Shown: positions 13,321 to 43,070 of the stretch, in pieces
Layout of the letters: the number at the start of each line of letters is the position of its first letter
Numbering within the stretch: position 1 is the first letter of the stretch
Source of the DNA: Hyphomicrobiales bacterium
GTDB lineage: Bacteria; Pseudomonadota; Alphaproteobacteria; Rhizobiales; JAJFHB01
Direction: 5' to 3'
Assembly: GCA_021775755.1 (NCBI GenBank)
Contig: JAJFHE010000039.1
Coordinates: 124,001-188,000, forward strand
Length of the DNA: 64,000 bases
Position numbers and translations under genes: made by a program
The notes under the pieces: model-generated
Databases searched by the model: none
Told to the model about the DNA's origin: nothing
Seen by the model: only the letters and a program-made list of their open reading frames with translations

Positions 13321-13439
13321 GCGGTATCCACACGTTTTCCACCGCGAACTGCCACTGAAGCTTCGTATGATGCGCGCACTTCGCGGCGCGTGGCGTATAA
13401 TGACTGGTTAGCCGTGACCGCGTGAGCAGTGATTCGTTT

Positions 13440-17591: not shown

Positions 17592-17614
17592 GTTTCAGCA
17601 TACAAGAACGAAAG

Positions 17615-17641
17615 AAGCCCGGCCATTGAGCCGGGCTTTTT
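17615..17641 (+). terminator. Rho-independent terminator after rpoD
   Basis: A perfect 9-bp stem AAGCCCGGC / GCCGGGCTT (17615-17623 with 17630-17638) with a 6-nt loop is followed by a run of T. It ends the dnaG-rpoD transcript 24 bp after the rpoD stop. The symmetric AA...TT ends may let it serve the convergent gene as well. Confidence 0.9.
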
Positions 17642-17667
17642 CGTTACGTCGGCTTCGGAAATGCCCG

Positions 17668-18396: not shown

Positions 18397-18713
18397 ATTC
18401 GGGGTCTCCTGATGCAAAAGCGGGGGCTCCGGTGCCATCGATCGAGCTTTTGCCACATGCCGGCGGGGGTATCCGCCTGATGGGCACTGCACGACGGCTG
18501 TGTCCGGTGCGCGTCGTCCCACTATATAGGAACTGGTGCCAAGGTTGGCGAGTGATCCAGATCACTATGCCGCACCGCCCGTGCCGAGTTCGCGCGCCCC
18601 AGCGCCGTTTGCAGCGTTGCCGCGCTGGACGCGCGCAATGGGGGGTTTGGCGCGGGGGCGAATTCTGCTATAGCGGGCGCCGCACTTCCCACCTGTCTCA
18701 GGCAATCTTGGAA

Positions 18714-24618: not shown

Positions 24619-24648
24619 AACTCATTGTTCATCAGGAAGGAGCCACAC

Positions 24649-25431: not shown

Positions 25432-25467
25432 CAGCAGATCGTAGGACATTTGGAACGGGAGGCATCG

Positions 25468-26325
25468 ATGCTACCACGATTTGAACTATCCCAACCACAA
25501 ACCCTGCCCGAGGCTTTGAAAGCTCTGGCAGGCGGCGTTGGACAGCCTTTGGCGGGTGGCACAAATCTGTTTCCCGACCTGCGCGGCGGACGGGAAAAAG
25601 GCGACACGTTCATCAGCCTGTCTCAGGTTGGTGAGCTGCGCTACATCGAGCACACGGATAACCGGGTCACGCTTGGTTCGGGGGCAACCATTTCTGATAT
25701 CCTTCGTGATCCCCAAATGAAGATCGCGGCTCCCGCGCTGGTTGCCGCCTCGGATATCTTCGCCGGCGCCATGGTCCGGAATGCGGCAACCATCGGCGGC
25801 AATGTCTGTTGCGGATCACCTTCCGCTGATTCGGTGCCACCGCTTCTGACGCTGGGTGCCGACGTTACGTTGGCCAGCGCATCGGGGGAAAGAACGCTTC
25901 CTCTTGATGAGTTTTATCTCGACTACAAGAAGACCGTCATGAAACCGGATGAGTTGCTGGCGTCCATATCTTGGACACCGCCAACGCCGGGCAGCGCACA
26001 TCTTTTTTACAAACTTTCCCGCAGAAAAGGAGACGCCATAACGATTACGGGCATCTCTGTTCTGGTTGAGGCAGAAGGTGGCAAATGCAAGACAGTGCGT
26101 ATTGCTCTGGGATCCGTTGCACCGACAATCTTCCGTGCACACGAGGCCGAAGGCATGCTTGCCGGCCGGGTCTTAACATCCGAGCTGATTGAAGAGGCGG
26201 CACAAAGTGCTGCCGGCCAATGCAAACCCATCAGTGATAATCGCGCATCGGCTGAATACCGGCTGTTGACGGCGCATTCGCTCACCCGCCGCTTGCTGAG
26301 ACAAGCCTGGAAACAGGCTTCCTAA
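25468..26325 (+). CDS. Molybdenum hydroxylase FAD subunit (CoxM/XdhB-like)
   Basis: ATG 25468 with GGGAGG 6 nt upstream gives 285 residues. The protein shows the FAD-binding domain of molybdopterin dehydrogenases: LAGGTNLFPDLRGG near residue 30 and MVRNAATIGGNVCCGSPSADSVPPLL near 100. It carries electrons from the [2Fe-2S] subunit to FAD and on to an acceptor. It is followed by the iron-sulfur and molybdenum subunits in the order M-S-L known from CO-dehydrogenase-like and nicotinate-type hydroxylases. Confidence 0.93.
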   Translation: MLPRFELSQPQTLPEALKALAGGVGQPLAGGTNLFPDLRGGREKGDTFISLSQVGELRYIEHTDNRVTLGSGATISDILRDPQMKIAAPALVAASDIFAGAMVRNAATIGGNVCCGSPSADSVPPLLTLGADVTLASASGERTLPLDEFYLDYKKTVMKPDELLASISWTPPTPGSAHLFYKLSRRKGDAITITGISVLVEAEGGKCKTVRIALGSVAPTIFRAHEAEGMLAGRVLTSELIEEAAQSAAGQCKPISDNRASAEYRLLTAHSLTRRLLRQAWKQAS

Positions 26326-26346
26326 CACCATCGAAGGAGACGCCAC

Positions 26347-26835
26347 ATGTCATCGGAAAAAGCCGTGACCCTTCGGGTAAATGGCAACGAGGTAAACATC
26401 ATCACCCCGGCGCACCGCACATTGCTGGAAGCGCTGCGCCATGAAGGGTTTGTTGAAATCAAAAGCGGTTGCGAAAAAGGCGACTGTGGAGCCTGCGCTG
26501 TCCTGCTTGACGGTGTGCCTGTCGATAGCTGCATAACGCTGGCATGGCATGCCGAGGGGCGTGACGTCACCACCATCAAGGGATTGGGAAATTCTGATTC
26601 TCCCGATCCTCTGCAAAAGGCGTTTATCGAAACGGGTGGCGCTCAGTGTGGCTATTGCACGCCGGGCATGATCATTGCGGCAAAAGCGCTGTTGAATGAG
26701 AACCCAGAACCTTCACTTGACGACATCAAGAAAGCGTTGAGCGGTAACCTGTGCCGGTGCACAGGCTACACAAAAATCTTTGAAGCCGTACAAATCGCAG
26801 CAGAAGACCTCCGCAAAGAGGGAGAAGCGGCATGA
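26347..26835 (+). CDS. Molybdenum hydroxylase [2Fe-2S] subunit (CoxS-like)
   Basis: This 162-residue protein has a good AAGGAG ribosome site. It binds two [2Fe-2S] clusters: a plant-ferredoxin type (SGCEKGDCGACAVLLDG, fourth Cys in VDSCITLAW) and an alpha-helical type (GGAQCGYCTPGMI and NLCRCTGYTKI). All eight cysteines are present. It overlaps the large-subunit gene by ATGA. Confidence 0.95.
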   Translation: MSSEKAVTLRVNGNEVNIITPAHRTLLEALRHEGFVEIKSGCEKGDCGACAVLLDGVPVDSCITLAWHAEGRDVTTIKGLGNSDSPDPLQKAFIETGGAQCGYCTPGMIIAAKALLNENPEPSLDDIKKALSGNLCRCTGYTKIFEAVQIAAEDLRKEGEAA

Positions 26836-29168
26836 ACCAGGTCGATACTTCGCCCAACGCTATTCCCAATGTGAACTTGCGGCAGGTTGGCAAAAACAAA
26901 CCACGTAATGATTCCCCCACCAAGGTTTACGGCAAGGCGATCTATGCCGGAGACCTCATCATGGATGATATGCTTTTCGCCAAGGTTCTTCACAGCGATC
27001 GCGCCTGTGCCGATATCAAAAGCATTGATGTATCTGTGGCCAAGACACTGCCGGGCGTTCACAGCGTTCTGACAGCAGATGACCTGCCGGCAACCAATGC
27101 GGTCATGACCGATATGCCGGGGCAGGTCGGTGGCGGTACGAAAAACACCAAACAGCCTATTCTGGCAAAGGAACGCGTTCGTTTTTACGGCGAGCCGATC
27201 GCCCTTGTAGCAGCAGAATCCTATGAACTTGCACAACGGGCGCTGGATTTGATTGTCGTCGATTATGAGGACACGGAAGGTGTCTATGACGCCTTTGACG
27301 CGCAAAAACCCGATGCGCCCATTGTATACGGCAATGATAATATCGTTGCCGCCTACAAGGTTCGAAAAGGCGACATTGAGAAAGGTTTTCAGGAAGCCGA
27401 TTTTGTTCTCGAGAACACCTACTCATCGCAATATCAGGAGCAGGCCTTCCTGGAGCCGGAGGCAGCCGTTGCCTGGGTTGATGAGCATGACATTTTGAAC
27501 ATCCGCTCGAGCACTCAAGTTGTAGAACATTTCCGAGCTGTGGCGGATGCGCTTGGCATGCCTCACAACAAGGTCCACCTACAGGCACCATATGTCGGTG
27601 GCGGATTTGGTGGCAAAGAAGTCATGACCATCGAGGTGTGGCTGGCATTGCTCGCCATGGATGCCCAGCGTCCGGTCAAGTTGAAACAGACGCGTGAAAA
27701 CTCCTTTATTTCTCATGGTCCGCGCCATCCCTTTACAATCACTCACAAAACCGGCGTTACTAAGGATGGCAAGATAACGGCGGCGAAAATTACCCTGACG
27801 TCCGATGCAGGCGCTTATGCCAAGCTGAGCCCCTATATCCTGCTTTATGCGACGGTTGGTGCAACCGGGCCGTACAGGGTCGATAATCTGTGGATTGACT
27901 CCACCTCTGCGGCGACCAACAACCTGCCGACCTGCGCCTATCGCGGGTTTGGCACAATGCAGGCCACCACAGCCTGTGAGGCCCAGATGGAAGAGCTTTC
28001 CAAGCTGATAGGCTTGGACTCTCTGGAATTTCGCCGCAAGAACTTCATTCAAACGGGTGATCCGAATGCTACCGGCCAGATCATTCGTAGCGCGGTGTGG
28101 TCAGACCAATGCGCGACGAAAGCCCGGGAGGCTCTCGGTGATAAACCGAAGAGCACGGAGCACACTGTCTACGGCCACGGTCTTGCCTGTTATCAACAGA
28201 GCTATGGGCGTATCCGCTGGATGAAAGATACCTCTGAATCGTGGGTTGGACTTGAAATGGACGGCACGCTCATTGTCCGATGTGCTGTTACCGATATCGG
28301 TGCGGGTCAGATGTCCGCACTGGCACAAATTGCCGGGGAGGTGCTTGGTGTCCCGATGGAAGAGATCACCGTTTACTTCGGTGATGGTCACGTCAATCCG
28401 CTGGCCGGGACTTCAACAGCTAGCCGCGCCCTCTACATGACCGGTAAAGCGACCGAACTGGCGGCCAAAAATGTTCGAAATAACCTGTTCGAATGCATGG
28501 CGGAATACTTCGATGTTAGGCCGGAGGAACTGGATCTGGGTGATTCAAAGGTTTTCGTTCAGGACAATCCCGAACGCTGCATGTCCGTCAAGGACATGGC
28601 CAAGCACTGTGCTGCTCAGGGTGTTCATCGTCACAGCCTTGAAATTTACAGAGCTCCGCCGAGCGAGGGCCTTGATCCTGAGACCGGACAGGGAGAAGTG
28701 TTCCCGGATTTCACCTACGGCGCCCATGCTGCCACGGTTGCTGTTGATACGGATACCGGCGAAGTCACCGTCATCAAGAGTGTCGGCGCTCACGACGTGG
28801 GGCAATCGATCAACAGGCAAGCCGTAGAAGGGCAGATCGAAGGCAGTGCTCTCATGGGTCAGGGATTTGCATTGAGCGAAGAACTGATTCTTGAAAAGGG
28901 TGTGCTGAAAAACGGTTCTTTCAGCGAGTATCTGATCCCAACCTCAGAGGATGTGCCGGAGATTGAATCCATAATCCTTGAATCCCGAAGTGGCCTCGGC
29001 CCATTCGGGTCGAAGGGAATTGGCGAACCCGTCTTCTCACCGGTCGCGGCTTCCATCGTCAATGCCGTGGCTGATGCTATAGGAACCCGCATACATCATC
29101 TGCCGCTGACGCCGGAAAAAGTCCTGACCGCTATCAATGAAGAGAAGACGAAGGAAGCCGCTGAGTAA
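26832..29168 (+). CDS. Molybdenum hydroxylase large (molybdopterin) subunit (CoxL/XdhC-type fold)
   Basis: This 778-residue protein holds the molybdenum cofactor. The N-terminal a/b hammerhead includes VYGKAIYAGDLIM, with QEQAFLEPEAAVAW near residue 200 carrying an active-site Glu. YVGGGFGGKE is near 255 and CAYRGFGTMQ near 370, with the Arg that aligns to the substrate-binding Arg of xanthine dehydrogenase. The catalytic Glu lies in GPFGSKGIGEP at about 731. It hydroxylates a carbon next to nitrogen in heterocycles, or oxidises aldehydes. The AYRCSFR loop of true CO dehydrogenase is absent, so it is not a CODH. No XdhC-type maturation gene accompanies it. Confidence 0.93.
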   Translation: MNQVDTSPNAIPNVNLRQVGKNKPRNDSPTKVYGKAIYAGDLIMDDMLFAKVLHSDRACADIKSIDVSVAKTLPGVHSVLTADDLPATNAVMTDMPGQVGGGTKNTKQPILAKERVRFYGEPIALVAAESYELAQRALDLIVVDYEDTEGVYDAFDAQKPDAPIVYGNDNIVAAYKVRKGDIEKGFQEADFVLENTYSSQYQEQAFLEPEAAVAWVDEHDILNIRSSTQVVEHFRAVADALGMPHNKVHLQAPYVGGGFGGKEVMTIEVWLALLAMDAQRPVKLKQTRENSFISHGPRHPFTITHKTGVTKDGKITAAKITLTSDAGAYAKLSPYILLYATVGATGPYRVDNLWIDSTSAATNNLPTCAYRGFGTMQATTACEAQMEELSKLIGLDSLEFRRKNFIQTGDPNATGQIIRSAVWSDQCATKAREALGDKPKSTEHTVYGHGLACYQQSYGRIRWMKDTSESWVGLEMDGTLIVRCAVTDIGAGQMSALAQIAGEVLGVPMEEITVYFGDGHVNPLAGTSTASRALYMTGKATELAAKNVRNNLFECMAEYFDVRPEELDLGDSKVFVQDNPERCMSVKDMAKHCAAQGVHRHSLEIYRAPPSEGLDPETGQGEVFPDFTYGAHAATVAVDTDTGEVTVIKSVGAHDVGQSINRQAVEGQIEGSALMGQGFALSEELILEKGVLKNGSFSEYLIPTSEDVPEIESIILESRSGLGPFGSKGIGEPVFSPVAASIVNAVADAIGTRIHHLPLTPEKVLTAINEEKTKEAAE

Positions 29169-30086: not shown

Positions 30087-31646
30087 ATGAACAGGCGCAA
30101 ATTTTTGGGATCATCTGCGATGGCAGCGGCGGTTGCGGGCATGCCCATGATCAATGGCGGCTTCTTTGCCAGTCCAGCGTTTGCCGGATCCGACAGACCG
30201 ATAACGTTTCTGTCGGCAGAAAATCTGACGGGCAACTGGAATCCAACGGCGCATACCGCGCTTTCACAGATCATATTTGAAGGCTTCGTGTTCGGCTATC
30301 TGACGCGTGCGCCGATGTCACCCGACAATCCAGACGAGATTGTGTTCGAACTGGCAACGGCAATGACATTGATCGACGAGCACACACTGGAGTTCAAGCT
30401 GCGTAAGGGCGTGAAGTTCCACAATGGCGAGCCGTTCACGGCCAATGACGTCAAGGCAACATTTGAATATGCGTCTCAACCCGAGCACCCGGCTCAGTGG
30501 TATCCAGGCCAGGCGAGAGTCGACGTAATCGACGATCACACCGCACATGTGAAGACCAAGGAGTTCGGTTATCCAGCAAGCCTGTTCTGGTTCCTCTCGG
30601 CATTCCTTCCCATCATGTCAGCGAAGGATATCGCTGATGGCACGGCGCTGACAGAAAGACCCAACGGAACCGGCGCATTCAAGTTCGTTAAACAGGACGG
30701 CAACACTACTGTCCTTGAAGCGAACATGGATTTCTTTGCCGGCCCACCGAAAGTGCCGGGCGTCAACTTCTCGTTCTCGGGCGATGCCACAACGCGCATG
30801 TTGTCGCTCCTCTCCGGTGAGGCCGACATCATTGAGCGCCTTGAGGCCGAGCAGGTAGATACCATCAATTCCAAGACGGGATTCCGGCTCAATCAAGCAG
30901 TTTCGGTCGAGAACAAATACCTTTGGTTCCGCTGCTCCAAGCCGCCCTTCAATGACTGGCGTTTGCGCCGTGCGGTCAGCCACGCGATCGACAGAGATGT
31001 TATTCTGGAAGTGCTCGGCGCCTCCGGCACGCCGTCAAATGCATGGATTTCGCCAGTGAAATTCGGATATGTCGACACTCCGAACTATCCGCAATATGAC
31101 CCGGAGCTATGTCAGAAGTTTTTGGCAGACGCCGGTTTTCCGCGCGCGGAAGGTTTGCCAAAACTGGAATACCTTACCTCTGTCGGGTTCTATCCCAAGA
31201 CCAAGGAGTATGGCGAAGTCATCACTGCGATGCTGCAGGAGCAAGGCTTTGATGTGGAGTTCAGCGCCATGGAAGTCGCGGCATGGGGGGATCGCCTCTA
31301 TGATAGACCGGGTGGTGGCCCGGGTCATATGATTGACTGCGGATGGGCAACAGGTTCCCCGGAACCGGACCTCGTATTGCGCACACACTTCCATTCGTCA
31401 TCGAAACGCATCTGTGGCATTGAAGATGCTGAATTGGATGCGGTTCTCGACAAGGAGCGCAATGCCACCGATCCGGCGGAACGCAAACGCGTGATCCAGG
31501 AAGAGGTCATGCCGATGCTGGCGGAGAAGACGCCGTCGCTCAGCTTGTTCACATCGGTGTTCATCCATGCCATGCGGGAAGATTTGGAAGGCATGTTCAT
31601 ATACCCCAACGGTATGTTGGACGCGACCCAGGCGACCAACGCCTAA
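30087..31646 (+). CDS. Dpp/Opp-type ABC transporter substrate-binding protein (Tat signal)
   Basis: This 519-residue protein is a cluster C (family 5) extracellular solute-binding protein. The N-terminus MNRRKFLGSSAMAAAVAG is a twin-arginine signal (NRRKFLG), with cleavage near SPAFA-GS at about residue 33, so it is exported folded. Family hallmarks are FELATAMTLIDEHTLEFKLR, KGVKFHNGEPFTANDVKATFEY and WRLRRAVSHAIDRD. Such proteins bind peptides, opines, nickel chelates, glycosides or other small solutes. It heads the operon with two permeases and a fused ATPase. The Tat signal is unusual against the Sec signals of most homologues, though known in the family. Confidence 0.93.
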   Translation: MNRRKFLGSSAMAAAVAGMPMINGGFFASPAFAGSDRPITFLSAENLTGNWNPTAHTALSQIIFEGFVFGYLTRAPMSPDNPDEIVFELATAMTLIDEHTLEFKLRKGVKFHNGEPFTANDVKATFEYASQPEHPAQWYPGQARVDVIDDHTAHVKTKEFGYPASLFWFLSAFLPIMSAKDIADGTALTERPNGTGAFKFVKQDGNTTVLEANMDFFAGPPKVPGVNFSFSGDATTRMLSLLSGEADIIERLEAEQVDTINSKTGFRLNQAVSVENKYLWFRCSKPPFNDWRLRRAVSHAIDRDVILEVLGASGTPSNAWISPVKFGYVDTPNYPQYDPELCQKFLADAGFPRAEGLPKLEYLTSVGFYPKTKEYGEVITAMLQEQGFDVEFSAMEVAAWGDRLYDRPGGGPGHMIDCGWATGSPEPDLVLRTHFHSSSKRICGIEDAELDAVLDKERNATDPAERKRVIQEEVMPMLAEKTPSLSLFTSVFIHAMREDLEGMFIYPNGMLDATQATNA

Positions 31647-31715: not shown

Positions 31716-32696
31716 TTGTACCTGCTGATCTTCCTTTCCAGAAGGCTGCTTCAAGGAGCTGCTGTTCTCCTGATCGTCACCTTCGCGATCTTCACGCTGC
31801 TTCGGGTAGTGCCGGGCGATCCCGCGCGGCTGATCGTCGGTGGTATGGCTCCGGACGAGGTGGTGGAACAGAAAGCCGAAGAACTTGGATTGAACGATCC
31901 GATCCCGGTCCAGTTCATTAAGTACCTCGGCGAGATCGCCCAGGGTGATCTCGGCAACTCGTTTGTGCGTGCCAGGAGCGGCAGCATGGGCGGGGCGGTG
32001 GCATTTGACGACCCGAGCCGCGGCGACCGGGCCGAGGTTCTCGATCTGATTATTGAGAGGGTTCCTCTGACACTTCAACTGGCAGGTCTTGCCGTACTCT
32101 TTTCTTTGATAATTTCATTCCCTTTGGGAGTGGCGGCAGGGCTGAATCCTGGAGCCTGGCAGGATAAACTGGCGTTTTTTGCAGGGTCGATCTTCGTGTC
32201 CGTCCCTAACTTTTGGCTAGGCATTGTCCTTGCTCTTTTGTTTTCCGTGCATCTCGGCATCCTGCCGTCGATTGGCTACAAGGGTTTTGAATACACGATC
32301 CTTCCGGCGTTCGTCCTTGCCATCGAAATGTCACCGTTCATCATTCGTACCCTGTCAGTCTCAATAGCCCAGATCATGCAGGAAGAGTTCATATCCGTCG
32401 CGCCACTGCGCGGTTTGATGCGCTCGCGTATCGTCGGCGCGCATGCCATCCGAAACGCCTCGATTCCCTTGCTGAACCTGTTCGGTATTCAACTCGGATC
32501 GTTGCTTGGTGGCGTGCTGGTGATCGAGTTCATCTTCGACTATCCCGGGCTCGGGCGCCTGACCATCAATGCGGTGCTGCAACGGGACTTCCCACTCATC
32601 CAAGGCATCGCAATATTCATCAGCGCCATGTTCGTTTTCATCAACATCGCTGTCGATCTCGCGGCGAGTTTTATTGATCCCCGGCTGGAGTATTGA
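31716..32696 (+). CDS. Dpp/Opp-type ABC transporter permease 1 (DppB-like)
   Basis: A TTG start at 31716 (LYLLIFLSRRLLQGAAVLL) with AAGGAAAG upstream gives 326 residues. The sequence FTLLRVVPGDPARLIVGG is the DppB N-terminal hallmark. The BPD_transp_1 domain carries about six membrane helices, and the EAA-type loop is SVAPLRGLMRSRIVGAHAIRNASIPLLN. It forms the membrane channel with the next gene, whose ATG begins one base after this stop. Confidence 0.92.
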   Translation: MYLLIFLSRRLLQGAAVLLIVTFAIFTLLRVVPGDPARLIVGGMAPDEVVEQKAEELGLNDPIPVQFIKYLGEIAQGDLGNSFVRARSGSMGGAVAFDDPSRGDRAEVLDLIIERVPLTLQLAGLAVLFSLIISFPLGVAAGLNPGAWQDKLAFFAGSIFVSVPNFWLGIVLALLFSVHLGILPSIGYKGFEYTILPAFVLAIEMSPFIIRTLSVSIAQIMQEEFISVAPLRGLMRSRIVGAHAIRNASIPLLNLFGIQLGSLLGGVLVIEFIFDYPGLGRLTINAVLQRDFPLIQGIAIFISAMFVFINIAVDLAASFIDPRLEY

Positions 32697-32697
32697 G

Positions 32698-33621
32698 ATG
32701 TCGGACACGGCCACCAAAAACCAGGCACCGGGGCAGGCGGCCTCCGCCGCATCGATGCTGACGCCGACACAACGCATGCTCCGGGAGGCATGGTCGAAGC
32801 CATCGTTCAAGTTTGGCTTCTTCACATTCACGGTGCTGCTCCTCGGTGCGCTGCTCTACCCGGAAATCAGCTCCATCGATCCGACCAAGATGAACATCAA
32901 GGCGCGTCACACGCCGCCTCTGCTCATTGGCGATTGGTCGTGGGCGCACCCCCTGGGAACCGATCATCTTGGGCGCGACCTTCTGGTCCGCTGCCTCGTC
33001 GGGCTTCGCTACTCGGTACTGATTGGCTGCGCTACGGTGGTCATGATGTTCATCGTCGGTTGCGGTTTGGGCCTTCTTTCCGGCTTCAAGGGCAAGTACA
33101 CCGACACAATCATCATGCGCATCACGGACGCGCAACTTTCGATTCCCATGATCATCCTGGCAATCGCCATTCTGGGTGTATCGCGTCCGACTGTGCCCGC
33201 CATCATCCTCGTCCTGGGACTGTCCGGCTGGCCGCTCTATGCGCGCGTTGCCCGCAGCGTAACGCTGTCGGAAAAGAGCAAGGAGTACATCAAGGGCCAA
33301 CGCGTTTTGGGGGCTTCGGATTGGCGGATCATTTTTTTGTTTGTCGCACCAGCGGTCTTGCCGCCTATCGCCTTTGTGGCGGTTCTGGACGTCGCCCGTA
33401 TGATGATTTTCGAATCCATACTCGGGTTTCTGGGACTCGGGGTTCAACCACCGACACCGACGTTCGGCAATATCATCGCGGACGGGCGAAAGTACCTCCT
33501 CAATGCATGGTGGATTGCCACCATGCCCGGACTGTTCCTCTTGTTCACGCTGACCAGCCTCAACTTGATGGGGTCAGCACTGGAAGGTGCGCGAAACAAT
33601 GTGCTCAGGGGAACTGTGTGA
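32698..33621 (+). CDS. Dpp/Opp-type ABC transporter permease 2 (DppC-like)
   Basis: ATG 32698 (MSDTATKNQAPGQAASAASM) gives 307 residues; the frame upstream to 32569 overlaps permease 1 and was dropped. The protein has the DppC pattern: one N-terminal helix, HPLGTDHLGRDLLVRCLVG near residue 85, five more helices, and the loop YIKGQRVLGASDWRIIF. It pairs with permease 1. Its stop shares one base with the start of the ATPase gene, which implies tight coupling. Confidence 0.93.
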   Translation: MSDTATKNQAPGQAASAASMLTPTQRMLREAWSKPSFKFGFFTFTVLLLGALLYPEISSIDPTKMNIKARHTPPLLIGDWSWAHPLGTDHLGRDLLVRCLVGLRYSVLIGCATVVMMFIVGCGLGLLSGFKGKYTDTIIMRITDAQLSIPMIILAIAILGVSRPTVPAIILVLGLSGWPLYARVARSVTLSEKSKEYIKGQRVLGASDWRIIFLFVAPAVLPPIAFVAVLDVARMMIFESILGFLGLGVQPPTPTFGNIIADGRKYLLNAWWIATMPGLFLLFTLTSLNLMGSALEGARNNVLRGTV

Positions 33622-35459
33622 TGTCCGGCGACAAGGCAATTCTCCAGGTTCAGGGGCTATCAGTCGGATTGCGGAACGATCCGTCGGCAAGAATTCTGGA
33701 CAATGTCAGTTTCGAGCTCGGGGCCGGCAAGGTTCTTGGTGTCATCGGTGAAGCGGGGTCGGGCAAAACTGTTCTGGCCAGAGCGATTGTGCGCGGGCTT
33801 ACCGAACCCCTGACATATGAAGCCGGACAGGTGTTCTATGGAGGCGATGACATATCGTCTCTTTCGCCGAAAAGGCTCGCCGACATTCGCGGCAACAAGA
33901 TTGGCTATATTGGATCGAACCCGGCCGGAGCGTTGGACCCGACACTCCCGGTGGGCGAACAGATCGTGGAAAAGCTTCTGTCGGTCAGTTCCGGTCTGTC
34001 ACGCAGTGCTGCCAAAAAACGCGTGCTGGAAGTGCTCTTTGCAGTCAGAATCCCATCAGCCGAAGTCAGGTTTCACGAATACCCCTTCCAATTCAGTGGC
34101 GGAATGATGCAACGCGTCATGATCGTCGATGCGCTGGTGACAAACCCTTCGGTCCTGATCGCTGACAACATCACGCAGGCTTTGGACGTGACGGTCGCAG
34201 CGCAAATCATCCGGCTCATCCAGGAGCTGCGGGACAAGTTCTCCACGGCCATTTTGTTTATCTCCTCATCGCTGCCGGTTGTCGAAACCATTGCCGATGA
34301 GGTGTTGGTTCTGCAGCAGGGCAAGATCATTGAGCAGGCAACCCCGTCGATACTGATCAACGCGCCGCAACATGACTACACAATGTCATTGTTGGCGAGG
34401 TTGCCGCGCATTTGGGGTGCCGACATTTCCGGTCCGGAAGCGAGCGATGCCCCGACGCTGATGGCCATCGAGGATGTTCACCGAACCTATATGGTCCGCA
34501 AGAAAGGCACATTCCGCGGCATGAATGCGGTGCAGGCGGTTCGCGGGGTCACGCTGGACATTCGCGAAGGCGAGAACATCGGTATTGTCGGGGAGTCCGG
34601 TTGTGGCAAATCCACACTCACACGGCTGTTGGCCTGGCTTGAAACGCCGGAACAGGGGACGATTCGTTTCGCCGGTGAGGATCTTTCACGATTAAGCCGG
34701 CAGGAACTGACTAAGCTGCGGCAGTCTTTCCAGTTGCTTCTCCAGGATCCCTACAGCTCCCTGCCGTCGCGCATGGCGGTGGGACGGATCATCGCCGAAC
34801 CGCTTTTGATCCACGGCAGCTTCAAGAAGCGGGAAATTCGTGATCGCGTCCTGCAGGCCATGGATGAAGTCGGGCTGGACCGGGCGCTTGAAAACCAACT
34901 GACCGTTGGATTGAGTGCCGGCCAGCGTCAGCGCATCAACATCGCACGCGCGCTGGTGCTCGAACCCCGGCTGCTCATACTGGACGAGACGTTGTCTGCG
35001 CTCGATCAGGTGGAGCAATCAAAGCTGTTCGAACTGTTCGACAAACTTCAGCAAAAGCATGGTTTCACCTACATCTTCATCTCTCACGACATGGCACTGG
35101 TGCGAAAGGTTTGCCATCGGGTGGCCGTCATGTATCTGGGCCGGATTGTCGAGCTTGCCGACAATAATGCCCTCTTTGAAGATCCGGTTCACCCGTATTC
35201 AAAAGCACTTTTGAGTGCGGTTCCGACGTTGGATGATCACCCGTTCAAGGCGCAGGAGTACCTGCTGGAAGGGGAGCCGCCGAGCCCGGTGGATATACCA
35301 ACTGGCTGCTCCTTTCGGTCCCGCTGTCCGGTCGCGCTGGCAAAGTGCGAAACCAATGATCCCGATGCCCGAGTTCTGGTCGGGGGCGGACAAGTCTCCT
35401 GTCATCTGGTTGATGAAAACCAGCCTGCCCCAAACTATCAAATTGCAGCTGCAGTCTAG
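33621..35459 (+). CDS. Fused two-domain ABC ATPase (DppD-DppF fusion) with a degenerate first site
   Basis: ATG 33621 gives 612 residues holding two full ATPase domains that are usually separate proteins. Domain 1 (1-265): Walker A GEAGSGKT (43-50) and signature SGGMMQ (159-164) are fine, but the Q-loop Gln is Ser (about 99), the catalytic Glu after Walker B is Asn183 (LIADNITQALD), and the H-switch His is Ser (about 216, LFISSSLPV). Domain 2 (280-612): Walker A GESGCGKS, Gln375, signature LSAGQRQ, Walker B LLILDETLSALD, and His489 in ISHDMALV are intact. The C-terminal oligopeptide domain with cysteine-containing CSFRSRCP is present. One of the two composite ATP sites is therefore expected to be weak or dead. 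Confidence 0.93.
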   Translation: MSGDKAILQVQGLSVGLRNDPSARILDNVSFELGAGKVLGVIGEAGSGKTVLARAIVRGLTEPLTYEAGQVFYGGDDISSLSPKRLADIRGNKIGYIGSNPAGALDPTLPVGEQIVEKLLSVSSGLSRSAAKKRVLEVLFAVRIPSAEVRFHEYPFQFSGGMMQRVMIVDALVTNPSVLIADNITQALDVTVAAQIIRLIQELRDKFSTAILFISSSLPVVETIADEVLVLQQGKIIEQATPSILINAPQHDYTMSLLARLPRIWGADISGPEASDAPTLMAIEDVHRTYMVRKKGTFRGMNAVQAVRGVTLDIREGENIGIVGESGCGKSTLTRLLAWLETPEQGTIRFAGEDLSRLSRQELTKLRQSFQLLLQDPYSSLPSRMAVGRIIAEPLLIHGSFKKREIRDRVLQAMDEVGLDRALENQLTVGLSAGQRQRINIARALVLEPRLLILDETLSALDQVEQSKLFELFDKLQQKHGFTYIFISHDMALVRKVCHRVAVMYLGRIVELADNNALFEDPVHPYSKALLSAVPTLDDHPFKAQEYLLEGEPPSPVDIPTGCSFRSRCPVALAKCETNDPDARVLVGGGQVSCHLVDENQPAPNYQIAAAV

Positions 35460-35468: not shown

Positions 35469-36227
35469 ATGCTGAACAGCCATCGCCGCGAACACATTCT
35501 GGAGAGTATTTCAAACCACAACCGGGTCTCGGTAACAGACATCGCGGCCAGCTTGAATGTGTCCGACGAGACCGTGCGGCGGGACCTGAAGGATCTTGAA
35601 AAAGAAGGCTTGCTGAGGCGTGTTCATGGCGGCGCAATAGGCGTTACGCGCATACGCGATGAACCCATCAGCAAGCGCGTTCAGAAGGCAGCCAAAGAAA
35701 AGGGAATTATAGCGCAACTCGCTGTCGAGCTGATCTCTGATCACACCTCCATCTTCCTGGACATAGGTTCGACCACGGAGGCCCTTGCACGACAGCTTGG
35801 AAGGTTTTCCGACCTCAAGCTCTACACCAACTCACTGAACATCGCCAAAATCGCAATAGAGTACTTTGGCGTTTCGGTGTTTGTGACCCCCGGTCAATTG
35901 CGAAAAGTGGAGTTGGATCTCGTCGGCTATGACACGGTGTCCTACATCCAGAGCTACTACTTTGACACCGTGTTCATGGGCGTGGCCGGCATTGACGTGG
36001 ATCGCGGGTTCATGGACTTCGAAGAAGATGAAGTCAGGATTCGCCAGGCTCTGGTGAAGAGTGCCAGGAACAAGGTGTTCCTCGCCGATTCAAGCAAATT
36101 TGGAAAATCCGCCAACATCCGCACCGCAACCTTTGATGAAATTGATCGGTTGGTTACAGATCGCGCGCCCGATCGGGAGTTCCAGGCGCAGTTCGAAAAA
36201 GAAGGAATGGAAGTCATCCATGCTTGA
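35469..36227 (+). CDS. DeoR-family transcriptional regulator
   Basis: This 252-residue protein has AGGAA overlapping the ATPase stop as its ribosome site. The N-terminal DeoR HTH is plain (VSVTDIAASLNVSDETVRRDLKDLEKEGLLRRVHGGA). The C-terminal sensor domain has LDIGSTTEALARQL and LADSSKFGKS, which bind phosphorylated sugars or sugar-like effectors in known DeoR proteins. It lies within the operon. A phospho-compound effector would fit the kinases and phosphatase encoded downstream. It overlaps the next gene by 8 nt. Confidence 0.92.
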   Translation: MLNSHRREHILESISNHNRVSVTDIAASLNVSDETVRRDLKDLEKEGLLRRVHGGAIGVTRIRDEPISKRVQKAAKEKGIIAQLAVELISDHTSIFLDIGSTTEALARQLGRFSDLKLYTNSLNIAKIAIEYFGVSVFVTPGQLRKVELDLVGYDTVSYIQSYYFDTVFMGVAGIDVDRGFMDFEEDEVRIRQALVKSARNKVFLADSSKFGKSANIRTATFDEIDRLVTDRAPDREFQAQFEKEGMEVIHA

Positions 36228-37521
36228 TGACGCTCCGTTCAATCACACCGCGCACGCCACGCTGCTGGATTTGTTCTCCGAGTTCGGGAAGATCGGCGCC
36301 GTGCAAAGCGGCGGGATTTCGCGGCTGGCCGCGAGTCCGGAAGATGGCTTGGCTCGAGACTCTCTTTGCGATTGGTTTCGGCATCACGACTTCGAGATCC
36401 TTGTCGACGAAATTGGAAACATCTTCGGGGTTCTGGATTTGGCGCTCGGAGACCCGACACAACATTTTTTCTGCGGCTCCCATCTCGATAGCCAGCCGGA
36501 CGGCGGAAAGTTTGATGGTGCCCTCGGTGTGGTCTGTGCCTGCGTCTGTGGATTGGTGATCAAGGATGCGGTGGCAAAGGGGGAGATTGACCCATTCTAT
36601 CGCTACTACGTTGTGGCCTGTTGGACCGGCGAGGAAGGTGCACGTTTTCAACCGAGCCTCATTGGCAGCAGCGTATTCGTTGGACTGATGCCGTTGGAAA
36701 TTGCTCTGGCCCGGCAGGATCATGAGGGCGTTTCCCTAAGGCATGCTCTTTCGCAGATCGATTATCTGGGCACCGCACAAGTGCCCGCGCCGGGGCACTA
36801 TCTTGAGGTTCACATAGAGCAGGGCGCGAAGCTTGAAACCGCGAACATACCTATCGGGATTGTCTCTTCTTGCTGGGGTGCAAAGAAAATTCTGATGGAG
36901 GTATCCGGGCGACCTGATCACACGGGACCGACGCCGATGGAGGACCGCCAAGATGCATTATTGGCAGCTTCGCATCTGGTTGTTCAGGCAAATGAAATTT
37001 CCCACCACTCGACCTCAACCTTGTACAGTTCGGTCGGCCGCATAGACGTTTCTCCCAACTCACCAAACACCATTGCTGACAAGGTACAACTATGGATCGA
37101 GTTCCGTTCGAACGACGGAGAAGCACTCCTTGAGGCCGAGCACCAATTCAGACATTCCTTTGACGGAATCGCCAAATCAACCGGCTGCGAGTTGAGAGTT
37201 GCAAGCTCTGAAGATCGTGCGGTTGTTGAGTTTGACAAGCACGGCATTGCAAACGTCGAAGACGTTTTGTCAAAGTCGAACATTCCCTATCTGCATATGA
37301 CCACAATCGCCGGCCATGACGCGATACGTTTGCAGTCCGTATGCCCCTCTACATTGCTCTTTGTTCCATCCAGGAACGGCATCAGTCACTCCCCGGACGA
37401 ATTCACCTCCGACGACGATATCACCGCCGGCTTCGATGCGATGCTGCACGCGGTTTCGCGTTTAATTTCAGCAGTGGCTTGCGATGATCTTCAACCCAGT
37501 TCTTGCGAAACGAAAAACTAG
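36220..37521 (+). CDS. M20-family amidohydrolase (N-carbamoyl-L-amino-acid hydrolase / allantoate amidohydrolase type)
   Basis: ATG 36220 gives 433 residues. The binuclear metal site is complete: FFCGSHLDSQPDGGKFDGALG (His88, Asp99), WTGEEGARFQPS (Glu pair), EVHIEQG, and a late His in NGISHSPDEFT. The dimerisation-lid segment GRPDHTGPTPMEDRQD is typical of the HyuC/AmaB/ureidoglycolate family. It would remove a carbamoyl or ureido group from an amino acid or allantoate-like substrate. The product of a HyuAB ring opening is exactly such an N-carbamoyl compound, which links block B to block A functionally. Confidence 0.92.
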   Translation: MLDDAPFNHTAHATLLDLFSEFGKIGAVQSGGISRLAASPEDGLARDSLCDWFRHHDFEILVDEIGNIFGVLDLALGDPTQHFFCGSHLDSQPDGGKFDGALGVVCACVCGLVIKDAVAKGEIDPFYRYYVVACWTGEEGARFQPSLIGSSVFVGLMPLEIALARQDHEGVSLRHALSQIDYLGTAQVPAPGHYLEVHIEQGAKLETANIPIGIVSSCWGAKKILMEVSGRPDHTGPTPMEDRQDALLAASHLVVQANEISHHSTSTLYSSVGRIDVSPNSPNTIADKVQLWIEFRSNDGEALLEAEHQFRHSFDGIAKSTGCELRVASSEDRAVVEFDKHGIANVEDVLSKSNIPYLHMTTIAGHDAIRLQSVCPSTLLFVPSRNGISHSPDEFTSDDDITAGFDAMLHAVSRLISAVACDDLQPSSCETKN

Positions 37522-38316
37522 ATGTCCGGTTTTGATCAAAACATAAACAATGCGATCCTGGCGACGGCGAATGAGATTTCCCAGAACGCCGCGGAAACTG
37601 CGCTTTCATACTTCCGGAAGAGCATGGACATTGGCCTGAAAGGAGACTCCAGCCCGGTCACGGTCGCCGATATTCAGATCGAACAAGAAGCCCGTGATCT
37701 TTTGGGCAGGCAGTTTCCCGAACACAGTATTCTTGGCGAGGAGTTTGGTGCGGGAGATATGAGCAAAGAGCATGTCTGGGTGATTGATCCCATCGACGGC
37801 ACGCGCTCGTTCATTTCCGGTCATCCGCTGTTCGGCTTTTTGCTAGCCTATTTCAAAGGCGGAGTAAGCCAGCTTTGCGTTGTTTCGATGCCGGTTCTGG
37901 GGGAACGGTATGTTGGCCTGTCCGGGCATGCGGCCACGTTGAATGGCTCCGAAATCAGGACTTCCGATAAAGCAAAACTCTGTGATGCCATCCTCTTCAT
38001 AAACGAGGGTGAAAAGATATTCGCAAATGAATCCGAGGTGCATGGGCGGCTGCTAACTGCAGGGCATACGCGGCGGTTTGGTTATGACTGCTATCCGCAT
38101 GCACTTGTGGCCGCCGGGCATGTAGATGCCGTCGTCGATTACGATGCGAAGCCCTTTGACTACCTGCCGCTGGCAGGACTGATTGAATCCGCTGGTGGCT
38201 GCATGACCGATTGGTCAGGAAAACCCCTAACGTTTGAATCCGATGGCAGGGTTGTAACAGCGGCGACACCGGAGTTGCATCGCGAAATGCTTCATCTGTT
38301 GGCGAAGGGGTCTTGA
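37522..38316 (+). CDS. Inositol-monophosphatase-family phosphatase
   Basis: This 264-residue protein begins immediately after the M20 stop. The Mg2+-dependent IMPase motifs are visible: ILGEEFG (Glu), WVIDPIDGTRSFISGHP (DPIDGT, near residue 88-93), and the second-site Asp in YDAKPFDYLPLAGLIESAGG near 207. Relatives hydrolyse inositol-1-phosphate, histidinol-phosphate, or 3'-phosphoadenosine nucleotides. With two kinases in the same operon, a phosphorylated pathway intermediate is likely. The ligand cannot be named. Confidence 0.9.
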   Translation: MSGFDQNINNAILATANEISQNAAETALSYFRKSMDIGLKGDSSPVTVADIQIEQEARDLLGRQFPEHSILGEEFGAGDMSKEHVWVIDPIDGTRSFISGHPLFGFLLAYFKGGVSQLCVVSMPVLGERYVGLSGHAATLNGSEIRTSDKAKLCDAILFINEGEKIFANESEVHGRLLTAGHTRRFGYDCYPHALVAAGHVDAVVDYDAKPFDYLPLAGLIESAGGCMTDWSGKPLTFESDGRVVTAATPELHREMLHLLAKGS

Positions 38317-38455
38317 GTATGCCTTGCATCGGATCCCAGACCACAAGTGACAGATCTTGCCGTGCAGACGAAGGAAGCCTCGGCGGCGCGCCTGCCAGGT
38401 TGTGTCGCATGGTTTGCCGGTGCTGTGGATTCATGACCGAGGAAAGTTGGCTAAC

Positions 38456-39877
38456 ATGCGCCGCGAGTTGAAAGAGACACCGGAAATGGACGTCAAGATG
38501 CTTGCGCACATGTCTCTTGTCGAACTCCAGACGGCATACGCAAACAGACAACTGAGCCCGGTGGAAGTAGTTGACGTATCGCTGGCACAGATTGCAGCCA
38601 CGAATGACACGATCAATGCGCTCTATGGTGTTCGTGCGGATGAGGCGCGAGCGGAAGCAAAGTCCTCAGAGGAACGCTATGCCGCTGGCCGGCAGCTCAG
38701 TAATTTTGACGGCATTCCGGTCACGATCAAGGACAGCGTCCATGCAGTCGGCATGAAGTGGCATCACGGATCTGCGATCCATGGCAAAGGTGTCCTGGGC
38801 ACCAAAGATGCGCCGCCTGCTGTTCGTTTGAAACGGGCGGGGACGATCATTCTCGGCAAATGCACAATGCCGGATTTCGGGTTGAGCGGGTCGGGGGTCA
38901 GCAGTTCACACGGGATTGTGCGCAATCCTTGGGGAATTTCCTGGAGCACCGGCGGATCGAGTGCCGGCGGTGGTGCGTCAATTGCCACTGGAATTGCCAT
39001 GATGTCCCTGGGTTCCGATATTGCGGGGTCGGTACGTTTACCAGCGGCACATTGCGGTCTGGCGGCACTCAAACCCACGCAAGGTGTTATTCCCCATTCG
39101 CCGGCATCGACCGTGCGGTCCGCGGGACCGATAACACGCAAGGCGGCAGACCTGCATGCCTGGACGAAACTTCTTTTGGGCCCGGATGAAAATGACCGGT
39201 ATTCCGTTCCGTATTGGGGGGCAACCTGCAGTACCGAACCGAAGGTCGGAGCCTGCGCAGATTTTGGATTTGGACCTGCTGTAGAGCCCGCTGTTCTGGC
39301 CTGTTTTAGCGACGCCAAGGCGGTGCTTTCAGATCTGGTTGGCCCTATTGTCGATGTTGATAAGACTGCGGGCTTTGACGCCTATATACCAATTGATGAC
39401 ATGCTCAAATTGAAGGGCTGGCTCGAGTATAGCGCTGCCGACCCGGCACTGCGTTGCCACACGCCATCGGAACTATACGAATGGTTCAAAGAGGCGGAGG
39501 GATGGACGTCCAGCAAGATCGGTGAGGTTGACTGCGGAATAGAAAAGGGTGTGGCCTATTGCGTGGATCTTTTCTCGGAAGTGGATTTTCTTCTGACGCC
39601 TGTGATGCCGGTGGTCAACTTCCCGGCCGAAGATCGCGGTATCGATCCTTGCATGCCGTTGCGTCACACAACGTTCACCGCGCTTTTCAATCAGTCTGGA
39701 AACCCGGCGGTTTCGCTTTGTGGCGGATTTGACGCGCGAGGCCTTCCCGTTGGGATACAGCTTGTTGGGAAGCGTTTTGACGATGTGCGGCTGCTAAAGC
39801 TTGCCACACAGCTTGAAGCCGCTCTGGATATCTATGGCCCCGGAAAGAAAGAATGGCCCATTGTACCGCTCACCTGA
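38456..39877 (+). CDS. Amidase-signature-family amidase
   Basis: ATG 38456 follows GAGGAAAG by about 9 nt and gives 473 residues; ATG 38486 is an alternative. The Ser-cisSer-Lys triad is visible: Lys in VTIKDSVHAVG, cis-Ser in STGGSSAGGGASIATGIAM, and the nucleophile Ser in GSDIAGSVRLPAAHCGLAALKPT. These enzymes hydrolyse amides to acids and ammonia. It lies in the ABC-M20-IMPase-kinase operon after a 139-bp gap, in which no terminator is visible. Confidence 0.92.
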   Translation: MRRELKETPEMDVKMLAHMSLVELQTAYANRQLSPVEVVDVSLAQIAATNDTINALYGVRADEARAEAKSSEERYAAGRQLSNFDGIPVTIKDSVHAVGMKWHHGSAIHGKGVLGTKDAPPAVRLKRAGTIILGKCTMPDFGLSGSGVSSSHGIVRNPWGISWSTGGSSAGGGASIATGIAMMSLGSDIAGSVRLPAAHCGLAALKPTQGVIPHSPASTVRSAGPITRKAADLHAWTKLLLGPDENDRYSVPYWGATCSTEPKVGACADFGFGPAVEPAVLACFSDAKAVLSDLVGPIVDVDKTAGFDAYIPIDDMLKLKGWLEYSAADPALRCHTPSELYEWFKEAEGWTSSKIGEVDCGIEKGVAYCVDLFSEVDFLLTPVMPVVNFPAEDRGIDPCMPLRHTTFTALFNQSGNPAVSLCGGFDARGLPVGIQLVGKRFDDVRLLKLATQLEAALDIYGPGKKEWPIVPLT

Positions 39878-39894
39878 AAATTTGGAGCTAAATC

Positions 39895-40845
39895 ATGTCT
39901 GACGAAGAAATCCAGATCAGAGAAAGCACGGCGAGGGATAAGGCCCAGCTGATTCTGGGTTCTGAACCGGAGACGTTCGAAAGCCCGCTGACCGTTTTGG
40001 CTTCGCCGGCGTGGCGGGGGATCGAGGGCGACACCTGGCGTGCAAAGACCGCAAAGAACTCCATTATTTTGAAGCATTACCACGCCGACGTGGATTTCTA
40101 TGTCGATGCAAGTGCGGCGATCAACGCTGCTGACCAGGCAGGCAAGATTGGCGTCGGGCCAGCACTTGTTCAGAGCTGGCATGACGAAGGTCTCGCGGCG
40201 TTTACGGATCTGTCGGGTGCCTGGCGTGCTGGGGGCCTGCATGATGCGGTAAATGCGACCGTCAGATCGAACGTCATCGCATGCAAGAAGTCATTTCAAT
40301 CCGACGCGACACTCGAAAACGATGCCTGCATTTTCGACGAAATCGAGAACCTTTATGAACTTGCCCGGTCAGGCAGCGTCGTAACCCACAATGATGTGGC
40401 GGTTTTTCTGGAATTCTTCCGCGATGCCAAAGGCAAACTGAAGAGTTCGGGGCAGGACCGCCTGCCGTGCCATCGAGACGGGAACACTGCCAATATCATG
40501 GTGGGGCCCGAAGATGCGGTCCTGTTGGTTGATTTCGATCTTGCGGCGAACTGCGATCCGTTCGAGGACATCGGTTGTTACCTGATCGAGTTCTTTGAAA
40601 GTGATGCGGAAGCGCGCGGTGGCTTTGAAGAATGGTACGGACGCTTTGACGAGGGACTGTTCCAGCGATCGATACTCTTTGGTCTTGCCGACGACATGCG
40701 GTGGGGCTTGATCGCGGCGATCATGGCCGCTCAGTCACCTCGCAGCAGTTTGGAGTTTTCGAAGTACTCCGCTTGGCGTTTCATGCGATTGGAAACGCAG
40801 GCCAAACGTTCCGAGGCGAACGACCGGATTAGAATTTCGACTTAG
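39895..40845 (+). CDS. Aminoglycoside-phosphotransferase/choline-kinase-like protein 1
   Basis: This 316-residue protein has GGAG 8 nt before the start. The kinase catalytic loop is LPCHRDGNTANIMVG near residue 195-209 (HxDxxxxN), followed by the metal-binding Asp in LLVDFDLAANCDPFEDIGCYL. The N-lobe lysine is probably in SIILKHYHADVDF near 58. Spacing resembles the APH/choline-kinase fold, but the N-lobe is short and diverged. It is followed at once by a second family member, suggesting partners or two substrates. No drug-resistance role is indicated. Confidence 0.8.
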   Translation: MSDEEIQIRESTARDKAQLILGSEPETFESPLTVLASPAWRGIEGDTWRAKTAKNSIILKHYHADVDFYVDASAAINAADQAGKIGVGPALVQSWHDEGLAAFTDLSGAWRAGGLHDAVNATVRSNVIACKKSFQSDATLENDACIFDEIENLYELARSGSVVTHNDVAVFLEFFRDAKGKLKSSGQDRLPCHRDGNTANIMVGPEDAVLLVDFDLAANCDPFEDIGCYLIEFFESDAEARGGFEEWYGRFDEGLFQRSILFGLADDMRWGLIAAIMAAQSPRSSLEFSKYSAWRFMRLETQAKRSEANDRIRIST

Positions 40846-40854
40846 GTGAATGAT

Positions 40855-41778
40855 ATGAGCGCAGCGACTGAACAGCAAGTCAAGGCAGCCGTGAACTCAG
40901 TTCCCGGTTGGTCATCCGAAAGTGTTTCCGTGCGACCGGTTGTCGGCGGATTGATGAATTCCAACTGGCTGGCCACACATGAAGGCAAGATGCATTTCAT
41001 GAAGGTCTACGGTATCGGATCGGAGAATTTCATCAATCGCGACCTGTCAATCGAAGCCGCCCGGCAGGCCCATGACCTGGGCATTGGTCCCGATGTTTTG
41101 CATTACGACAATCAAACCGGTCTGGAGGTTGTCGAGTTTCTAACGGACTATCGCGCGTCCACAAATGCCGACTTTTCGCGCATGGATTTTCTGGAAGGCG
41201 TAATCGATCTTTATGCTGCGTTTAACGGCGGCAAACGGCTTTCGAAGACGAAGGACGTGTTTGAAATGACCGACGAACACATTGAGCAGGGCGATGAGAT
41301 CGGCGCCATCCGCCCCGCCGACTTCGATTGGTTATTGAAGCAGTATGTCAAGGCGAAGAAGGCCTTCATGGCGTCCGGGCTTGACCTTGTACCGTGTCAC
41401 AATGACCCGATGCCGGGCAATTTCATGGTGCAGCTGTACGCTGACAAGATCACCGACATGAAACTCATCGATTACGAATTCGCATCCAACAATGAGCGTG
41501 CTTATGAGCTTGGTGTCTTTTTGGGTGAGGTGTTCCTGGATGAAGCAACCTCGCTGACACTGATTGAAAGGTATTATGGCGACGTGCGCGCCGAAATCGT
41601 TGCGCGTGTCACCGTCGCGCGTGCTGTCGCCGATATGAAATGGGGATCGTGGGCGGTGCAGCAGCGCCAACTGTCGGAATGGGACTTCGACTATCAGAAA
41701 TACGGGATCTGGAAATACGCACGTGCGCGCATGTTGTTCAATGATCCTCGGTGGGACGACTGGCTGCGCATAGTATAG
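40855..41778 (+). CDS. Choline/ethanolamine-kinase-like protein 2
   Basis: ATG 40855, with AGGTGA at a 5-nt gap, gives 307 residues; GTG 40846 is the alternative. The catalytic loop LVPCHNDPMPGNFMV (HND...N) and KLIDYEFASNNERAYELGVFL are close to choline/ethanolamine kinase signatures. The N-lobe reads PVVGGLMNSNWLATHEGKMHFMKVYG. It probably phosphorylates an amino-alcohol or similar small hydroxyl compound. It is the last gene of the block B operon. Confidence 0.85.
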   Translation: MSAATEQQVKAAVNSVPGWSSESVSVRPVVGGLMNSNWLATHEGKMHFMKVYGIGSENFINRDLSIEAARQAHDLGIGPDVLHYDNQTGLEVVEFLTDYRASTNADFSRMDFLEGVIDLYAAFNGGKRLSKTKDVFEMTDEHIEQGDEIGAIRPADFDWLLKQYVKAKKAFMASGLDLVPCHNDPMPGNFMVQLYADKITDMKLIDYEFASNNERAYELGVFLGEVFLDEATSLTLIERYYGDVRAEIVARVTVARAVADMKWGSWAVQQRQLSEWDFDYQKYGIWKYARARMLFNDPRWDDWLRIV

Positions 41779-42268: not shown

Positions 42269-43070
42269 GGCTCTGTCAGGTTAACCAGGTATCGGCAGCA
42301 GCCGAAATGCGCTAGCGATTATCAATGTCGAAAATCTCTTATGCGCGCCATCGCTTTCCACCCGTCATCATCCAGAATGCGGTTTGGCTCTCCAGTCGCT
42401 TTTCGCTAAGTTATCGCGACGTAGAAGATTTGCTCGCTGTACGCGGCCTCGACATTTCATATGAAACGATCCGTCCTTGGGTCATCAAGTTCGGACAGCT
42501 CTACGCTCGCAGGCTCCGAGACAATCGACCACGACCTGCCGGCCGTTGGCATCTCGATGAAATGTACGTTTCGATCGGCGGAAGGTGGATGTATCTGTGG
42601 CGCGCGGTCGACAGCGAAGGCGAAATTCTCGATGTTCTGGTTCAAACGAAACGAGACAAGCGCGCCGCGTTGAAGCTCATGCGCAAATTGTTGAAGATGC
42701 AGGGCTACGTTCCCGACGCGATCGTTACAGACAAGCTGAGATCATACGGCGCTGCGTTACGGGAGCTTGGCCTCTCAACTCGCCACGTGACTGGGGGAAG
42801 GTCGAACAACCGGGCTGAGAATTCGCATCAACCGGTGCGACGACGAGAGCGGGTGAGCAAGGGCTTCAAATCTCCGGGAACCGCTCAACGTATTCTTTCC
42901 ATCCATGCCGCCGTGTACAACCACTTCAACGTCCAGCGCCACCTGATAACCCGTCGAACGCTTCGCCAATTCTGTGCTGCCGCCATGGATGAATGGCACG
43001 CAATTACGGCGGCCTGAATTCTGAGTGAGAAAGCTTTTTGCGCCGACATAGCCGTTAACTTGACACTTCC
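42269..43070 (+). mobile_element. IS6-family insertion sequence (copy B)
   Basis: An element of about 802 bp is bounded by imperfect inverted ends, GGCTCTGTCAGGTTAAC on the left and, inverted, GGAAGTGTCAAGTTAAC on the right (13 of 17 positions match). One intact transposase lies inside. The flanking 8-mers, atgaggca and cccagcgc, do not match. It differs clearly from copy A in terminal repeats and protein, so the two belong to different IS6 subgroups. Confidence 0.82.
42325..43017 (+). CDS. IS6-family transposase (copy B)
   Basis: This 230-residue transposase starts MSKISYARHRFPPVIIQNAV. The IS6 DDE catalytic core is intact: Asp in GRWHLDEMYVSIGG, Asp in AIVTDKLRSYGAAL, and Glu in NNRAENSHQPVRRRERV. 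The C-terminus LRQFCAAAMDEWHAITAA is mirrored by the relic at 19622-19734. It appears full length. Confidence 0.94.
   Translation: MSKISYARHRFPPVIIQNAVWLSSRFSLSYRDVEDLLAVRGLDISYETIRPWVIKFGQLYARRLRDNRPRPAGRWHLDEMYVSIGGRWMYLWRAVDSEGEILDVLVQTKRDKRAALKLMRKLLKMQGYVPDAIVTDKLRSYGAALRELGLSTRHVTGGRSNNRAENSHQPVRRRERVSKGFKSPGTAQRILSIHAAVYNHFNVQRHLITRRTLRQFCAAAMDEWHAITAA

Follow-up and report, generated by a model that had tools for sequence, protein, structure and literature searches.

Each composite ATP site of an ABC transporter combines the Walker motifs of one NBD with the signature of the other. In E. coli DppABCDF, the single mutants DppD E179Q and DppF E187Q keep similar ATPase activity while the double mutant has none, and in resting DppBCDF ATP analogues are bound on DppF and not on DppD (PMC12136057). 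The original prediction for the locus described here had assumed activity in both of the standard subunits, DppD and DppF, which agrees with these mutants. The ABC proteins known to have a degenerate site (CFTR, TAP, MRP1, Pdr5) are for the most part exporters or channels. Among human full-length proteins it is invariably NBS1 that is degenerate, and a change in the NBD2 signature is part of every such site; the reason for retiring one site is still debated, and the functional origin of the pattern has been called enigmatic (PMC7756269).

Our analysis covered a window of 64,000 nucleotides, meaning the whole stretch of DNA analysed, which encodes a fused Dpp/Opp-type ATPase (Table 1). The coordinates of the ATPase ORF are exact (ATG at 33621, stop at 35459), its ATG overlaps the stop of permease 2 (tgTGATG), and it is the fourth and last of four transporter genes. 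As in Dpp/Opp-type ABC importers, the operon also encodes an SBP of the SBP_bac_5 family and two BPD permeases. The N-terminus of the SBP (30087-31646) reads MNRRKFLGSSAMAAAVAG, a leader of the twin-arginine type. Pfam matched PF00005 (ABC_tran) in two stretches of the ATPase and PF08352 (oligo_HPY) in its C-terminal region (75.5 bits against a cut-off of 27.1), where there is a four-Cys motif that we take to be of the Fe-S type, as in Dpp/Opp ATPases. NBD1 is DppD-like, grouping with separate DppD-type domains and canonical first halves (support 99) in a domain tree whose deep nodes are weak and in which one row, L117_sep_1, is an artefact from a wrong-frame ORF. NBD2 is DppF-like, with PRK11308 as its best match at a score over that model's cut-off. 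The ATPase missed the equivalog cut-offs for DppF (442.7 against 660), OppF (449.2 against 540), GsiA (418.3 against 1077) and YejF (450 against 834). An AlphaFold2 model built from seven sequences (pLDDT 76.5, pTM 0.72, residues 545-612 low) found its best Foldseek matches in Mtb OppABCD and DppABCD, with target-normalised TM values of at most 0.90. This predicted structure supports the Dpp/Opp ATPase fold only, nucleotide occupancy being beyond its reach. The ATPase is a Dpp/Opp-type variant and not a standard member, since it lacks the two catalytically complete sites that 31 canonical fused relatives possess.

Table 1. Features of the importer operon, the ATPase motifs and the downstream genes, in window positions
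Feature	Positions	Strand	Basis
Substrate-binding protein, SBP_bac_5, twin-arginine-like leader	30087..31646	+	domain search, neighbourhood comparison
Permease 1, DppB/NikB-type	31716..32696	+	domain search, neighbourhood comparison
Permease 2, DppC/NikC-type; stop overlaps ATPase start	32698..33621	+	domain search
Fused two-NBD Dpp/Opp-type ATPase, 612 aa	33621..35459	+	ORF, domain search, fold match to Mtb DppABCD/OppABCD ATPase
NBD1 A-loop position, L17; F/Y in 27/31 canonical relatives	33669..33671	+	alignment
NBD1 Walker A GEAGSGKT, residues 43-50, intact (NBS1)	33747..33770	+	motif reading, alignment
NBD1 Q-loop YIGSNP, S99 in place of Gln (NBS1)	33906..33923	+	motif reading, alignment
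NBD1 signature FSGGM, residues 158-162, intact (faces NBS2)	34092..34106	+	motif reading, alignment
NBD1 Walker B/D-loop LIADNITQALD, N183 in place of catalytic Glu (NBS1)	34155..34187	+	motif reading, alignment
NBD1 H-loop FISSS, S216 in place of switch His (NBS1)	34257..34271	+	motif reading, alignment
NBD2 A-loop Tyr290, invariant (NBS2)	34488..34490	+	alignment
NBD2 Walker A GESGCGKS, residues 324-331, intact (NBS2)	34590..34613	+	motif reading, alignment
NBD2 Q-loop Gln375 (LLLQDP), intact (NBS2)	34743..34745	+	motif reading, alignment
NBD2 signature LSAGQ, A433 in place of Gly (faces NBS1)	34911..34925	+	motif reading, alignment
NBD2 Walker B LILDE, D455 and catalytic Glu456 intact (NBS2)	34974..34988	+	motif reading, alignment
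NBD2 switch His489 (ISHD), intact (NBS2)	35085..35087	+	motif reading, alignment
C-terminal four-Cys motif C563, C569, C576, C594	35307..35402	+	oligo_HPY match; invariant in 30/30 members
DeoR-family regulator, conserved neighbour	35469..36227	+	domain search, neighbourhood comparison
M20 / allantoate-amidohydrolase-like Zn hydrolase, conserved neighbour	36214..37521	+	domain search, neighbourhood comparison
Inositol-monophosphatase/HisN-type phosphatase, conserved neighbour	37522..38316	+	domain search, neighbourhood comparison
Amidase, frequent neighbour	38357..39877	+	domain search, neighbourhood comparison
APH-type phosphotransferase, conserved neighbour	39895..40845	+	domain search, neighbourhood comparison
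Choline/ethanolamine-kinase-type phosphotransferase, conserved neighbour	40846..41778	+	domain search, neighbourhood comparison

Our reading of the motifs confirmed that NBD1 carries Ser99, Asn183 and Ser216 while keeping Walker A and the signature, as originally predicted, and 40/40 members likewise lack the Gln, Glu and His. The Walker B Asp of NBD1 is retained as well. The second half had been predicted to keep all of its motifs; this holds for Walker A, Q375, D455/E456 and H489, however, the change in its signature, LSAGQ, had been overlooked. Since this signature faces the altered motifs of NBD1, every motif change is confined to the composite site NBS1. NBS2, in turn, is complete, with the Walker, Q-loop and H-loop motifs of NBD2 and the intact NBD1 signature. 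The proposal that this importer has become asymmetric in the manner of degenerate-site exporters is supported. The altered NBD2 signature is the strongest single argument for the retirement of one composite site.

A first search of 61 genomes returned two proteins at 54% identity, after which identity fell to about 41%; the other members were gathered through a GTDB contig scan, class, order and phylum genome searches, and plasmid searches. All 40 members compared (46-77% identity), from chromosomes and plasmids of alpha- and betaproteobacteria, have the degenerate pattern, and none has regained the Glu, His or Gln. We aligned 30 of them with 31 canonical fused relatives and read the motif columns from the alignment. 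Position 183 is N in 29/30 members and S in 1/30, position 216 is S in 26, A in three and N in one, position 99 is S in 14, A in 14, N in one and G in one, and position 433 is A in 22 and T in eight; the canonical relatives have E, H, Q and G, respectively, at these positions in 31/31 cases. Signature variants in NBD2 of the degenerate members include LSAGQ, LSTGE and LSTGD. The A-loop aromatic of NBD1 is found in 0/28 degenerate members with a residue there, against 27/31 canonical relatives (F/Y). By contrast with these losses, the NBD1 Walker A Lys, Walker B Asp, D-loop Asp and signature SGG are invariant across the 30 aligned members, and the Thr/Ser following the Walker A Lys is kept. K330, Q375, E456 and H489 are likewise invariant, which together with the NBD1 SGG makes NBS2 canonical. 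The replacement residues are also conserved (N183 as above, Q186 in 30/30 and G98 in 30/30 members), and new invariant or near-invariant residues, including D170 and M163, have appeared in NBD1. Class-switched positions cluster in the NBD1 Q-loop, Walker B/D-loop and H-loop and in the NBD2 signature region.

Ten further members outside the alignment have the same pattern with no exception, the most divergent being from Thioclava (46% identity); they include a betaproteobacterial record from Roseateles whose title is marked unverified, and the GTDB contig scan supplied a second betaproteobacterial member, from Comamonas (L035). The three NBD1 changes thus always occur together in orthologues, and the restored Glu or His that would have pointed to random decay was absent from 40/40 members. 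Because the changes are fixed in the degenerate members and the canonical residues are present in 31/31 relatives, neither chance nor assembly error accounts for them. The most degraded member (L077) has S at the position of the catalytic Glu and, in NBD2, an LTASQ signature and a D-loop with Gly in place of its Asp. One protein at 41% identity (L058) was considered as a possible intermediate and rejected, all of its motifs being canonical. The degenerate set forms one clade, set apart by a branch of length 1.9 that has support 100, in a tree made by a quick method with the four motif blocks omitted and with long branches on some canonical rows. For pairs with usable dS, dN/dS was 0.06-0.35 in NBD1 and 0.03-0.22 in NBD2, with NBD1 higher in every pair, and mean pairwise identity was 0.55 for NBD1 versus 0.61 for NBD2. 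NBD1 thus has slightly more freedom than NBD2 yet is clearly constrained, and the degenerate set is under purifying selection.

The degenerate ATPase was present in 22/397 genomes of the order, 5/385 of the class and 6/398 of the phylum, the window's own genome being counted each time. It also occurs on 76 plasmid records, of which 49 were typed as conjugative, with pRi1724, pAoF64/95, pAt15955, pRL12 and pAtS4e among the carriers. The clade is patchy in its distribution and often plasmid-borne.

The original prediction also held that fusion had locked the two halves together. This did not survive comparison, as the same order holds many fused Dpp-type ATPases whose two sites are both intact, paralogues in the window's own genome among them; for this reason fusion neither requires nor implies degeneracy. 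The related idea that degeneracy comes with fusion was rejected as well, fused canonical relatives being common. In 385 class genomes, we found no split (unfused) degenerate NBD1 beyond the fused ones. Fusion is a background feature and no part of the change.

With its composite pattern fixed across the clade, selection acting against decay and the motifs of NBS2 intact, this ATPase looks like a stable one-engine design and not a broken gene, since all 40 relatives compared do likewise. Based on these observations, we propose, with a probability of roughly 0.6, that it serves an SBP-dependent type I importer of the Dpp/Opp type in which NBS1 has been retired, hydrolysis takes place only at NBS2, and NBS1 probably still binds ATP. 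NBS1, formed by the Walker A and B motifs, Q-loop and H-loop of NBD1 and the signature of NBD2, would not hydrolyse ATP at a useful rate. NBS2, formed by the NBD2 motifs and the FSGGM signature of NBD1, would hydrolyse one ATP per transport cycle. As the phosphate-binding Lys/Thr and the Mg-binding Asp are kept, NBS1 most likely still binds ATP and would hold its side of the dimer while NBS2 opens and closes, a latch role modelled on proposals for MRP1, CFTR, TAP and Pdr5. By analogy with E. coli Dpp, docking of the SBP would close both NBDs, upon which ATP would be hydrolysed. A one-site Dpp with a weak DppD side is mechanically plausible, since DppD E179Q still hydrolyses and resting DppD is unbound (PMC12136057); the asymmetry latent in E. 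coli Dpp may have been made permanent on the DppD side in the degenerate clade. Conservation of the whole transporter and its neighbourhood also counts in favour of a retired site. Against it, both sites of E. coli Dpp can hydrolyse (PMC12136057), and we found no published biochemistry on any member of the degenerate clade. Moreover, findings on exporters may not carry over to importers, whose NBDs open in a different mode.

Without the NBD1 A-loop aromatic, ATP might bind NBS1 only weakly. Together with the missing Q-loop Gln, H-loop His and partner-signature Gly, and with a DppD site that is already empty at rest in E. coli DppBCDF (PMC12136057), this loss speaks for NBS1 as a nucleotide-free structural half-site, with NBD1 serving as scaffold and coupling-helix partner and ATP bound and hydrolysed only at NBS2. 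We consider this unlikely. In NBD1, 30/30 members have the Lys of Walker A and the Asp of Walker B, and the Thr/Ser after the Lys is kept, residues that a non-binding site might shed; Pdr5 has another residue in place of this Lys in NBS1 (PMC7756269), as do RbsA/NupO in their second Walker A (PMC11466899). We therefore favour an ATP-bound NBS1 over an empty one. It is improbable that NBS1 hydrolyses slowly with a substitute base, so that both sites turn over at very different rates. Degenerate exporter sites with a conservative E-to-D change do still hydrolyse slowly (PMC7756269), however, the change here is from E to N, the His and Gln are gone as well, and the partner signature is altered. 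No class-switched position of NBD1 supplies a conserved acidic replacement adjoining the site, and the sole new Asp, D170, sits in the helix after the signature. Less probable again is a role for NBS1 as a regulatory sensor, perhaps responding to the ATP level or to a metabolite, in place of a mechanical latch; this has been raised as an open possibility for NBS1 of exporters (PMC7756269) and would suit the appearance of residues such as D170 and M163, but NBD1 has no extra Pfam domain. Random decay of a duplicated ATPase towards a pseudogene, to which the somewhat faster evolution of NBD1 might point, is refuted by a pattern fixed in 40/40 members down to 46% identity, low dN/dS, an invariant Walker A Lys and signature, and an intact operon. 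Returning to a retired but ATP-bound NBS1, we tentatively suggest, at somewhat below even odds, that a whole clade of SBP-dependent type I importers has convergently reached the asymmetric cycle of exporters and CFTR, in which NBS1 is a permanent ATP latch without catalysis and each substrate costs one hydrolysed ATP. Such a cycle would build on the resting-state asymmetry of Dpp, whose DppD site is without ATP until the SBP docks.

We can speculate on the substrate of the importer from the neighbouring genes. A catabolic cassette (35469-41778), made up of the six genes at the foot of Table 1, accompanies the degenerate importer in most relatives, and an IS240-type DDE transposase gene (42325-43017) lies directly downstream of it. 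Genes for EutB/EutC (ethanolamine ammonia-lyase) or N-formylglutamate amidohydrolase are near the importer in several relatives; there are no Eut genes within the window. Upstream, at 20999-29168, are genes for hydantoinase A/B, an SDR and molybdopterin dehydrogenase subunits, possibly a pathway for cyclic-amide degradation. On the root-inducing plasmid pRi1724 (L130) and on pAoF64/95 (L131), 3462-18472, the cassette adjoins EutBC and N-formylglutamate amidohydrolase, a setting that suggests a plant-associated amine or amide nutrient; a search for literature on the Ri/opine-plasmid cluster found nothing. Given the conserved neighbours, the Eut and N-formylglutamate genes and the upstream hydantoinase genes, the substrate may perhaps be a small amide- or ureide-linked amine, not a general peptide.

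A clade of type I importers that shares the NBS1 geometry of the degenerate exporters offers an independent instance of the arrangement, in which transport runs the other way and an SBP provides the trigger. Through its natural variants one can test whether the import of a substrate costs one ATP or two, and members are found on plasmids of tractable bacteria, e.g. pRL12 of Rhizobium johnstonii 3841. A single degenerate site in an importer is already known from type II systems (RbsA/NupO, PMC11466899). The type I Dpp/Opp case is seemingly new; we found no report of one in a search that had most subscription journals outside its reach.

Comparison with known systems places the ATPase among Dpp/Opp importers. 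It shares with E. coli DppDF and the fused ATPases of Mtb DppABCD/OppABCD the fold, the SBP_bac_5 protein with two permeases and an oligo_HPY region with four Cys, and with the latter also the fused domain order. Those ATPases, however, have two canonical sites, whereas NBS1 here lacks the Glu, His, Gln and partner-signature Gly. RbsA/NupO of B. subtilis (CUT2-type) also has fused importer NBDs with one degenerate site (PMC11466899), but it is a type II system whose second Walker A lacks the Lys; in our type I Dpp ATPase the N-terminal NBD is changed and both Walker A motifs are intact, including the second Lys (K330). The siderophore importer IrtAB likewise shows asymmetric nucleotide binding, and its authors set it against the degenerate-site TM287/288 (PMC10246721), however, it has an exporter fold and no SBP. 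CFTR, TAP1/2, MRP1, Pdr5 and TM287/288 have, as here, a degenerate NBS1 with the NBD1 Walker B Glu replaced, an altered NBD2 signature and a consensus NBS2; CFTR, TAP and Pdr5 also have another residue in place of the H-loop His (PMC7756269). Unlike in that group, the Q-loop Gln is also lost here. These proteins are exporters or channels, while ours belongs to an SBP-dependent type I importer, and its asymmetry must have arisen independently.
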